Shown: in pieces, positions 19,680 to 23,280 of the stretch
Numbering within the stretch: position 1 is the first letter of the stretch
How the letters are laid out: the number at the start of each line of letters is the position of its first letter
Source of the DNA: Pseudomonas sp. R76
GTDB lineage: Bacteria; Pseudomonadota; Gammaproteobacteria; Pseudomonadales; Pseudomonadaceae
Assembly: GCF_009834565.1 (NCBI RefSeq)
Contig: NZ_CP019428.1
Span: 3,224,001 to 3,288,000 of the forward strand
Reading direction: 5' to 3'
Length of the DNA: 64,000 bases
The notes under the pieces: model-generated
Database searches by the model: none
Seen by the model: the letters and a program-made list of their open reading frames with translations, nothing else
What the model was told of the DNA's origin: nothing
Translations under genes and position numbers: made by a program

Positions 19680-20480
19680 GTGTGAGTGAAATTTTGGAGT
19701 TGTTGCCGCATTGAGGGCAGCCGGCTTAGCTGAGCAAGATGGCATGCCCGGACGCTTAGTTCGCCAGTTAAAGCTGGCAGAGAATAGCCGATGAAAGTTC
19801 GATACTGGTAAGAAATGGTGAATCAACCAGACTCCGAGTCATGCACGTTGCACCTCGAGGTGCAGGGTGAAGCGTTGACAGGGGAAACCGATGGGCTAGC
19901 CATTGAGCCGGGTACTCAGGAATTCGGGATGCCGATGCTGTTAAGCGAAGCAGAAGGCAATACGGAGCATGACGTTATACGCCAGTCATGCTCTGATCCC
20001 GTGCGGTCGGAGACCCTGTGCACGTCGGGAAGTCCTTTGCACAGAAACTGGTAGATCTCATGGGTGCCCGATACGCAAGCACCGGGCGGAGCAGGAAAGG
20101 CCAAAAGCCGTAACCCTGCTGCCCACGCTGATGAGAAGTCGGATACGTCTGTAGTACCTGAGAAACCATCGAACAAAGGGCCTTGCCCTGCGCCGCGATG
20201 CTGCGGTGGGCGTGGACGGCATGTCGTGGCGAGACTATGAGGAAGGTCTTTTCCAGCGCGTGACCGAGTTGCACGGAAGACTTCACAAAGGAGCCTTCCG
20301 GGCAACGCCATCGCGGCGGGTCTATATTCCCAAAGCTGATGGTAGGCAACGCCCGTTGGGTATTGCTTCTTTGGAGGACAAGATCGTACAGCAGGCAGTT
20401 GTCACTGTTCTGAATTCGATCTATGAGGAAGACTTTCTTGGGTTCTCGTATCGGTTTCGACCGCGCCGCAGTCAGCACGA

Positions 20481-20553
20481 TGTGGGTAATTGCACAGACT
20501 TGCCCACCTATTTGCATTCGATCTGACCAGTCATTTGCATCGGATTTAACCAG
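20481..20553 (+). repeat. Left end of the cassette: terminal sequence plus two internal repeats
   Basis: Terminal TGTGGGTAATTGCAC, then TTTGCATTCGATCTGACCAG (20511-20530) and a diverged second copy ending TTTAACCAG (about 20531-20553). Confidence 0.7.
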
Positions 20554-20642
20554 CATGCTTCGTGGCCCCTTCCGGCAAAAGCAGGCATCCGCACATGCCG
20601 TTTCGGCCAGGTGCTTCTAAACGCCGCTCTGTAGATCACGGT

Positions 20643-21071
20643 TTACAGACTTTGATAGCGCCGTTCGAAATCACTGGCCAGCTGTTCAAGGGTGACGCTC
20701 CCCAAGCGATCTATAAGCAATGCCTGCGCCGCATCAAACGCTTCGGTTAGCGCAGCGTTCACCGCTTGTTCGACCAGGCATTCTGGATGGTCAGTCGACA
20801 AACCGATGGCGAAAAGCGAGGACGAGCCCAAGGCCTGATGGATGTTCAACAGTGTCATCTCTGCTAGTGGTTTCGCCAGCGTCCACCCTCCACGGTGTCC
20901 CTTTTCTGAGCGCACATAACCTTCTTCCTTGAGCAGCGCCATGGTCCGCCGAACCACCACTGGGTTGGTACCGAGCATCTGCGCGATGGTATCGGACGTG
21001 GCGGGCTGTTCATGGCGAGCCATGTGGATCAGGACGTGCAACATGCGGGACAAGCGAGTGTTATTTCTCAT
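20643..21071 (-). CDS. Rrf2-family regulator, cassette cargo
   Basis: A 142-residue winged-helix regulator: MRNNTRLSRMLHVLIHMARHEQP, then TSDTIAQMLGTNPVVVRRTMALLKEEGYV and the wing SEKGHRGGWTLAKP, a pattern typical of the Rrf2 family (YwnA/HypR-like branch). The three-Cys cluster that binds Fe-S in IscR or NsrR is absent; only one Cys (in HPECLVEQ) remains, so a thiol or electrophile sensor is more likely than an Fe-S sensor. It is divergent from the flavoprotein gene at 21213, with a long inverted repeat between, so it probably represses that gene and itself. Confidence 0.85.
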   Translation of the reverse strand: MRNNTRLSRMLHVLIHMARHEQPATSDTIAQMLGTNPVVVRRTMALLKEEGYVRSEKGHRGGWTLAKPLAEMTLLNIHQALGSSSLFAIGLSTDHPECLVEQAVNAALTEAFDAAQALLIDRLGSVTLEQLASDFERRYQSL

Positions 21072-21114
21072 GAATAGCGGATTCCTGAATTACTGGCAGT
21101 GAGTATCGCTCGAT

Positions 21115-21167
21115 ACAACATAAGTTACGAGACTGTTGACACGCCGGGATCATGTAACTTACGTTGT
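21115..21167. promoter_or_regulatory. Inverted repeat and promoter between cargo genes
   Basis: ACAACATAAGTTAC (21115-21128) and GTAACTTACGTTGT (21154-21167) are inverted copies matching at 13 of 14 positions with a 25-bp spacer. A TTGACA -35-like hexamer at 21136-21141 lies between the arms, pointing to the flavoprotein gene; 17 bp on, the -10 overlaps the right arm and is weak. This suits an operator for the Rrf2-type regulator. Confidence 0.6.
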
Positions 21168-21212
21168 TTCTAGAGTTCTTCGAGCAGGTCGAAGAACCAG
21201 GGAGACTGACCT

Positions 21213-22100
21213 ATGGTTTATGACGTGATCATCGTTGGCGGCAGCTATTCCGGCATTTCCGCAGGTTTGCAACTGGCACGGGCGCGCCGGAAGGTGTTGG
21301 TGATCGATGCAGGTCAACGCCGCAACCGATTTGCTCACAGCTCACATGGATTTCTTGGGCAGGACGGTCGTAATCCCGGCACGATTGCCAGCGAGGCACG
21401 TGCTCAGTTGCAGGCATACCCCACAGTAGAGTGGCTTTCACAACCCGCCATCCAGGCAAGGTCGGACGATGGTGGATATGTGATAACAGTCGCGAATGGG
21501 GAACAATTCGCGGCGCGGCATTTGATCCTGGCCACAGGGGTGGTGGATGAGTTGCCTGAGGTTCCCGGATTGTCAGAGAGCTGGGGTCAGCGGGTGTTTC
21601 ATTGTCCGTATTGCCACGGTTATGAATTGGACGGCGGACCGATTGGAGTATTGGCGGCTTCGCCAATAGCCATCCACCAAGCGCTAATGTTGCCCGACTG
21701 GGGACCCACAACCCTATTCCTCAACGAGATACTCGAACCTGATGCCGACCAGTTGGCAAAGCTGGCCAGGCGCGGGGTGGCGGTGGAGCGCGAACCTGTT
21801 CTGTCGGTTGGAGGGGAACAAGCCGATGTGACGCTCGCCAGCGGTCGTGTGATCAAACTTGCAGGGCTGTTCACTCAGCCTCGGACACGCATGGGCAGCC
21901 CACTGGCGGCGCAACTGGGGTGCGAGTTTGAAGCCGGCCCGACGGGTGAGTTCATCAAGGTCGATGCGATGCGCCAAACAAGTGTCTCCGGCGTATTTGC
22001 CTGCGGGGATGCGGCAATAGCCGCAGGTAATGTGGCAATCGCTGTGGGTGATGGTGCACGCACGGGCGGCGCGGTACACCAGTCACTGATCTTTCGCTGA
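21213..22100 (+). CDS. Thioredoxin-reductase-like flavoprotein lacking the NADPH motif, cassette cargo
   Basis: A 295-residue two-domain flavoprotein of the thioredoxin-reductase family. It has the FAD fold GGSYSG (about 9-14), ILATGVVDELPEVPG, the redox-active CPYC in VFHCPYCHGYE (about 132-135) and the terminal FACGDAA. The NADPH-domain GxGxxA loop is replaced by IGVLAASPIAIHQAL. Loss of that loop with CxxC retained is seen in dithiol oxidases of the GliT/HlmI/DepH group, which use O2 instead of NADPH. So it may be an oxidase for small dithiols rather than a thioredoxin reductase. Complete and unbroken, with the Rrf2-type gene divergent to it. Confidence 0.8.
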   Translation: MVYDVIIVGGSYSGISAGLQLARARRKVLVIDAGQRRNRFAHSSHGFLGQDGRNPGTIASEARAQLQAYPTVEWLSQPAIQARSDDGGYVITVANGEQFAARHLILATGVVDELPEVPGLSESWGQRVFHCPYCHGYELDGGPIGVLAASPIAIHQALMLPDWGPTTLFLNEILEPDADQLAKLARRGVAVEREPVLSVGGEQADVTLASGRVIKLAGLFTQPRTRMGSPLAAQLGCEFEAGPTGEFIKVDAMRQTSVSGVFACGDAAIAAGNVAIAVGDGARTGGAVHQSLIFR

Positions 22101-22188
22101 ATAGGTTTAGTAAGCGGACTCAGCGATGATGCATCCACCACCGTGACCGCTTTGGGTAGTTCTCTGACGGTCTTCACTACGGCCTGTG

Positions 22189-22283
22189 CTGGTCAGGTCG
22201 AATGCAAACGGTTGGTCAGCACGGATGCAATTCACTGGTCAGTGGCAATGCAAATGGGGGTTCAAGTGGGGTGCAATTTCGCA
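22189..22283 (-). repeat. Right end of the cassette: three internal repeats plus terminus
   Basis: On the minus strand from 22283: TGCGAAATTGCAC, then repeats ending TGACCAG near 22235-22255, TGACCA near 22213-22232, and TTTGCATTCGACCTGACCAG at 22189-22208. The last is almost identical to the left-end copy at 20511-20530. Confidence 0.7.
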
Positions 22284-23213
22284 ACGATGCGCTGGATGCG
22301 TTAAGGGTCGCGCTGAAAAGCCAAAAGATGAACTGGATATTGGATGCGGATATCACGTCGTTCTTTGATGAGATCGACGATGAATGGGTGCTGATGTTTC
22401 TGGGGCACAGGATTGCAGACCGGCGCTTGCTCGGGCTTATCTGCAAATGGCTTCAAGCGGGTGTTTTGGGGGATGGCCGTAGGGTGGCTGCGACCAAGGG
22501 GGCGCCCCAAGGCGCCCCCAAGGCGCAGTGATATCAACGCTCCTGGCGAATATCTATCTTCACTACGGGCTGGATCGATGAGCAAGGCAGTGGCGCGAGC
22601 GCCACGCGCGTGGCGATATGATTGTCGTGCGCTACGCGGATGACAGTGTGGTGGGGTTCAGGACGAAAGTGCAGGCTCAGCAGTTTCTGATGCAGCAGCA
22701 GGAACGGTTGGCCAGGTTCGGCCTATCGCTCAATGCCTCGAAAACACGACTGATTGAGTTTGGTCGTCTTGCTGCGAGAAGTCGTAGAAAGCGAGGTTTA
22801 GGTAAACCGGAGACATTTGACTTTCTGGACTTCACGCACTGTGGTAGTACCAACAGAAGCGGTGGGTTTCAAATACTGCAACTGACGGTCAAGAAGCGAA
22901 TGCTTGCAACGCTACTGGCTATCCGGGGTGAGCTGAAACGCCGACGTCATGAGCCTGTTCGGGTCGTGGGTCAGTGGCTTAACCGGGTTGCCAGTGGGTA
23001 CTTCAATTACCACGTGGTGCCGGGAAACCTAATACGTCTTGACGGTTTTCGGTTGGCGGTATGCTGTCTCTGGCGGCAAGCCCTCAAACGTCGCAGCCAC
23101 CGTCATCGGCTTCAATGGTCACGCTACGGACGCCTTGCCGACCTCTATATACCAAGACCGAGAAATGCACATCCTTATCCAGAGAATCGCTTTGCGTCAC
23201 GTACCCAAGGCAG

Positions 23214-23280
23214 GAGCCGTATGCGGTAGTTCCGAACGTACGGATCTGTGCGGGGGCGGCAGGTAACTGCCGTTCCTACC
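23214..23280 (+). ncRNA. Group II intron domains V and VI
   Basis: Just after the maturase stop, GAGCCGTATGCGG...CGTACGGATC (23214-23246) folds as the conserved domain V hairpin with its AGC-like lower stem. The next stem, GGCGGCAGGTAACTGCCG, is domain VI with a bulged-A candidate. The 3' intron end is placed at about 23279-23280 (CTAC or CTACC). Confidence 0.7.

Follow-up and report, generated by a model that had tools for sequence, protein, structure and literature searches.

The window analyzed here is a stretch of 64,000 nucleotides from the genome of Pseudomonas sp. R76 (6.83 Mb; G and L numbers are our handles for genomes and loci, and this genome is G000). The letters of the window place in it an element of 1801 bp (20483-22283), inserted in the reverse transcriptase gene of a group II intron. 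Between two end modules, the element carries divergently oriented genes for an Rrf2-family regulator and a flavoprotein, and we find no transposase inside it. The features are collected in Table 1.

Table 1. Features of the element and of its insertion site, in window coordinates.
Feature	Position	Strand	Basis
Group II intron reverse transcriptase, upstream part	20206-20482	+	TIGR04416 positions 19-110, 108 bits
Target site duplication, left copy ACGATG	20477-20482		Letters and empty site
Left end module	20483-20577	+	Tip TGGGTAATTGCAC; two 23-bp-spaced repeats; matches in other genomes
Rrf2-family transcriptional regulator, 142 aa	20643-21071	-	PF02082, 112 bits
Intergenic dyad, 20-bp arms, 85% complementary, 25 bp apart	21109-21173		TTGACA at 21136
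Thioredoxin-reductase-like flavoprotein, 295 aa	21213-22100	+	PF07992 (pyridine nucleotide-disulphide oxidoreductase), 77 bits
Right end module	22147-22283	-	Tip TGCGAAATTGCAC; three 23-bp-spaced repeats; matches in other genomes
Target site duplication, right copy ACGATG	22284-22289		Letters and empty site
Group II intron reverse transcriptase, downstream part	22290-23229	+	TIGR04416 positions 209-349, 70 bits (ORF 22618-23229)

An exact 6-bp target duplication, ACGATG, flanks the element on both sides. It is a short duplication of the kind known from the IS21 family, where target duplications are 4-8 bp. The preliminary description had placed the element at 20481-22283 (1,803 bp), with a 4-bp duplication, ACGA. 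We dropped that version because the 6-bp repeat is exact, and because the tips of delimited relatives mostly start TGNGNAATTGC, which puts the tip of this element at 20483 and therefore gives it its 1801 bp. The tips are of the TG..CA type. In the left module, TRACCAG blocks start at 20524 and 20547, with an additional degenerate unit near the tip; in the right module, complements of the block start at 22189, 22212, and 22235. The repeated blocks that had been noticed before, two on the left and three on the right, are thus where they had been reported, 23 bp apart.

Out of 15 matching plasmid records we fetched three, from Pseudomonas plasmids (L232, L233, and L234), in which the intron is intact and runs uninterrupted, ..CAGCACGATGC.., through the insertion point. 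When the element and one ACGATG are removed from the window, the reading QHDALD is restored, the same reading that had been obtained with ACGA, and the empty sites agree with it at the junction. Judged from these letters, the duplication and the empty site together show an insertion at this locus. The downstream part of the reverse transcriptase has a broken frame in the window, and the joined flanks match the intact introns at the DNA level. We also observe that, compared with the intact plasmid introns, the host intron is short of about 200 bp within the ltrA frame (window 20184-20192). By its sequence, it is an intron that was, or became, defective besides the insertion.

The preliminary description proposed a two-gene redox or detoxification cargo. 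The two genes are there, while the role is a family assignment only: the protein families suggest a part in thiol or redox stress. The regulator has one cysteine, at residue 98. The flavoprotein carries the motif CPYC, at residue 131, and its best NCBIfam match is TRX_reduct at 63 bits, under the cutoff of 343 for that model. The intergenic dyad with its TTGACA is a possible operator and promoter, through which the Rrf2 protein would regulate the divergent flavoprotein gene. For the flavoprotein, dN/dS is 0.21 against G222 and 0.11 against G046; for the regulator, the values are 0.05 and 0.03. The two genes are under purifying selection, and because of these low values both look functional. 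The same cargo recurs in two genomes. In G222 (97.5% identity over 1583 bp) it lies within a 12.4-kb element, L091; in G046 (93%), a stretch of 19.9 kb showed no recognizable end pair. In both genomes, the similarity to the window ends at the inner edges of the window's end modules. A second stretch in the window's own genome (L002, G000:C1:1364085-1365031) matches the cargo in its flavoprotein portion, with 73% identity, and is without the ends of the element.

How widespread are these ends? A query made of the two ends joined matched at least 224 of 398 Pseudomonas genomes at E ≤ 0.1, the window's own genome included, and at least 187 of the 398 at E ≤ 1e-3. These counts are possibly low, as the search scored two first-look candidates per genome (three in the IstA search reported below). 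As examples of individual matches, the left end is found elsewhere with 94% identity over 87 bp (E-value 3e-32), and the right end with 87% over 139 bp (E-value 3e-41). In 228 other genomes drawn from the class, the right end has no match. Plasmids carry the ends as well, with 33 records matching the left end (29 Pseudomonas, 2 Stutzerimonas, 2 uncultured) and 35 matching the right one (34 Pseudomonas, 1 uncultured).

We fetched 40 regions with strong end matches, built models of the ends, and tested for target duplications at 56 loci selected for strong end matches, the window among them. A candidate pair of inward-facing ends is present at 29 of the 56, and for the other 27 there is none in the fetched stretch. 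Exact duplications flank the pair in 24 of these 29 loci, which corresponds to 24 of 35 candidate tip pairs; in 8 cases the duplication is exact at the 6-bp level. For random pairings (n = 4757), the corresponding frequencies are 2.0% and 0%. The end pairs of L033, L076, L081, and L096 have no exact duplication, and for L103 a duplication is exact only when offset by 1 bp. Examples are TCAGAC around 1.3 kb (L032), GCTTTT around 1.3 kb (L034), GCATG around 6.4 kb (L073), ACCTTC around 12.4 kb (L091), and CCATA around 18.4 kb (L075). The ends recur across Pseudomonas around unrelated cargo, beyond chance; a search for the same ends with other cargo in other genomes, as had been suggested from the window alone, does find them.

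We take as delimited cassettes the 22 elements that pass the scored test, the window's included, plus two accepted by eye (L103 and L095). These 24 range from 964 to 18,375 bp (median 3.5 kb), and none contains a relative of IstA, IstB, or the ORF346 protein introduced below. One of them, L094, has an unrelated DDE transposase (68% over 457 aa), to which L090 has a weak match. The cargo is diverse. L107 carries Type I restriction, specificity, and methylase genes; L073, a Type I specificity gene; L106, a HEC-06-like gene (123 bits); and L110, homologues of MkoA (1291 bits) and MkoB (225 bits), genes that we take to be those of Mokosh. These last lie at L110:556-7063, in an element of 7.2 kb without a transposase and with IS21-type ends. 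A Pfam tally of 106 cargo ORFs, which gives the 25 commonest families without mapping them to elements and takes in the ORFs of L081 and L096 (no exact duplication), includes among the matches listed GmrSD, N6-methylases, ABC and MFS transporters, OprD, CoA-transferases, and regulators.

The cassettes would have to be moved by a transposase encoded elsewhere. In the window's own genome, searches with NF033546 and with the cognate IstA give no match, and PF01695 gives three weak ones (22-27 bits, one over the Pfam cutoff) in frames of 506-826 aa, which we infer to be other AAA+ proteins; we therefore rejected the idea of a helper in this genome. IS21 transposases above the NCBIfam cutoff are present in 45 of 199 Pseudomonas genomes. 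At the best 30 IS21 loci, which belong to other clades, the end models have no significant match at the locus's own istA, and the sole significant match among the 30, in L115, falls on the end of a separate cassette, which lies just outside that IS21 element. A group with a 509-aa transposase has terminal repeats of the same layout and of other sequence (ATTCCACG..ATCCGGCCAC). These best-scoring clades were rejected as helpers, since they lack matching ends at istA and the repeats of the 509-aa group differ.

The cognate IstA loci came from a further set of 20 IS21 loci. The clade, with 60-100% identity to the cognate IstA used as query, is present in at least 9 of 398 genomes, one of them with a fragment, and the next relatives are at 43-45%. 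Its IstA scores 250 bits against an NCBIfam IS21 cutoff of 160, and its IstB 231 against 200. Beside istA and istB there is a conserved third gene, ORF346, for which we found no Pfam, NCBIfam, or PDB sequence match, and structural similarity that is weak only. Three transposons with all three genes were delimited by ends of the window type and exact duplications: 12,547 bp with CAGTG (G037), 15,169 bp with CCTTG (G115), and 13,888 bp with CCAGGA (P. schmalbachii, L249). A fourth, of 10,018 bp with CTGATT (G378), was read from the letters. These helper transposons are more than simple IS elements: between G333 and G070, the copies share an identical stretch of 19.5 kb, which includes the repeats following istB, and their far end lies beyond it. 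Only transposons bearing ORF346 had ends of the window type on both sides together with duplications. The preliminary description had called the ends IS21-like and had suggested looking for them with istA and istB; both ideas are borne out by these four transposons, which lie in relatives and share the ends and the kind of duplication.

Two other stretches of the istA/istB modules deserve mention. In the G115 transposon, a dense internal array of end-type repeats, about 20 bp apart, follows istB (L199:10447-10623), and other istA/istB modules have shorter versions of it; the array is possibly regulatory. Also after istB, about 209 bp (L191:7181-7389) are conserved at 77% among the distant modules L191, L199, and L201; their minus strand may have a gene for a small protein.

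The ends behave as modules. As an example, L073 and L079 share ends of 97.7% identity over 133 bp and 95.3% over 106 bp, while their cargo is unrelated, and the remaining matches between them are cross-matches among the end repeats. In the closest pairs, homology ends at about 106 bp for the left type and at 125-134 bp for the right type, often near GGCAGAGAACGRCC. More distant pairs have scattered stops, with one end type reaching up to 171 bp inward (L091/L109). The sharp inner edge thus holds, in these alignments, for the closest pairs. We counted 33 occurrences of the core motif, compared with 7 in a single Markov shuffle (831 kb), and part of these occurrences come from the ends; this is at most a hint that a dispersed Pseudomonas repeat is the route by which cargo enters. 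The pattern GGCAGNNNNCGRCCMAAAGCNG does not occur in the window's own genome.

Insertion sites can be shared too. Six loci in as many genomes (L105, L107, L109, L100, L106, and L095) have one insertion site with the duplication GAGCC, flanks 84-95% identical, and different cargo. This site probably lies within an integrative element, because in L107 it adjoins a phage-type integrase gene and a DUF3987 gene. A flank of the same site is present at one end of L141 (G059).

What process could produce such a family? One possibility is that the cassettes are deletion derivatives of full transposons that lost istA, istB, and ORF346, with the cargo already inside and no special exchange. The full transposons do have cargo beside their module, and the window's cargo is also that of the 12.4-kb L091, from which a shorter form could arise by deletion. 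Against this, near-identical ends surround unrelated cargo in L073 and L079, with homology ending at the inner edges, and no module remnant is found in the 24 cassettes; we regard this origin as somewhat unlikely. Alternatively, the cassettes could be variable gene slots, their cargo swapped mainly by homologous recombination at ends or flanks, with transposition rare or past. The six GAGCC loci are what one would see in that case, and no unit has been found at two different sites: neither the window cassette nor the L079 cassette has a further full-length copy at another site in the 298 genomes searched for each, and for L079 the other genomes had one end or part of the cargo. This result speaks against transposition of whole units. 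However, elements elsewhere have different exact duplications, which recombination alone would not give, and in the window the empty site and the duplication point to an insertion, so that recombination as the main process is unlikely.

The cassettes might also be moved by some other transposase, such as that of a different and commoner IS21 clade. Such a helper would account for ends that are common while the cognate clade is rare, and the 509-aa group has the right layout of repeats. But the sequence of those repeats differs, the 30 loci have no significant end-model match at istA, the match in L115 being outside the element, and both-side ends with duplications are confined to the transposons that bear ORF346. 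We consider another transposase very unlikely.

The window cassette is very probably a non-autonomous transposon, a mobile insertion cassette of a Pseudomonas family with IS21-type ends, and it would have been moved in trans by the ORF346-associated clade. Movement in trans appears to us the best reading because IstA/IstB transposons share the ends and the type of duplication, and the assignment of this helper to these ends, which relies on their match in sequence, is likely. The IstA of this clade would bind the 23-bp repeats with their TTTGCAT-N5-TGACCAG sequence, perhaps together with ORF346, and IstA and IstB would insert whatever DNA two ends enclose, with a duplication of 5-6 bp as the result; the cassettes would borrow this machinery. 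As no helper was found in the window's own genome, insertion into the intron would have occurred in trans in an earlier host, or from an element since lost, which probably either brought the cassette along or inserted it. The family would gain cargo where DNA becomes joined to an end module at its inner edge, the ends serving as reusable brackets.

How does this compare with known systems? Non-autonomous cassettes and IS21 elements are already known, and our comparison draws on PMC3281130, PMC4444841, PMC10122671, PMC8649781, PMC3189936, and PMC9330008. Mobile insertion cassettes (MICs; De Palmenaer et al. 2004, cited in PMC3281130 and PMC4444841) are described there as genes between IS-type ends, with no transposase and with movement in trans assumed. 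The window cassette resembles them in its coding cargo between two ends, its lack of a transposase, its target duplication, and the cognate autonomous element in relatives, and the name mobile insertion cassette, given to it in the preliminary description, appears well chosen. It differs from MICs in its multi-repeat ends of IS21 type, in family cargo of up to 18 kb, in genus-wide recurrence, and in a likely helper that has a third gene and is a cargo-bearing transposon in its own right. With the IS21 family (PMC10122671), the window element shares multiple terminal repeats, and the helper IstA and IstB score above the NCBIfam IS21 cutoffs; unlike that family, the window element has neither gene, and full members are at least 10 kb, with cargo and ORF346. 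Full members resemble the transporter IS (tIS) of PMC9330008 in having passenger genes with a transposase. They greatly exceed an IS in size, however, and a transposase is what the window cassette lacks. Tn7-like transposons (PMC8649781) likewise have diverse cargo, defense genes included, decoupled from the core; here, however, the helper core scores as IS21 IstA/IstB, and most members were found coreless. Tn7-like elements have a TnsA/B/C core with a TniQ/TnsD target selector, and for ORF346, with its weak structural similarity, a selector role is conceivable. A MITE is under about 300 bp and non-coding, unlike this element of 1801 bp with two genes. In a full-text literature search, whose coverage lacked most subscription papers and ISfinder, we recognized no published description of the cassette family.

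A broader proposal, which we make tentatively and would put at less than an even chance, is that Pseudomonas has a cargo-trading system. It would consist of end modules of about 105 and 125-134 bp acting as interchangeable brackets, and of a rare IS21-type transposase with a dedicated ORF346. New genes, often for defense, would be joined repeatedly at a fixed inner junction, and most members would have no transposase and would depend on full transposons that are rare.

Because annotation goes by transposases, cargo elements that have none readily escape notice. Ends of this type occur in about half of the Pseudomonas genomes sampled. Some of the ends enclose Type I restriction genes, or genes that are GmrSD-like or Mokosh-like, and all of the cassettes may be moved by a single rare helper clade. 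The family thus poses the question of how new cargo joins so precisely to near-identical ends. The ends also offer a way to delimit islands that are at present unexplained, and they name a candidate helper in IstA, IstB, and ORF346.
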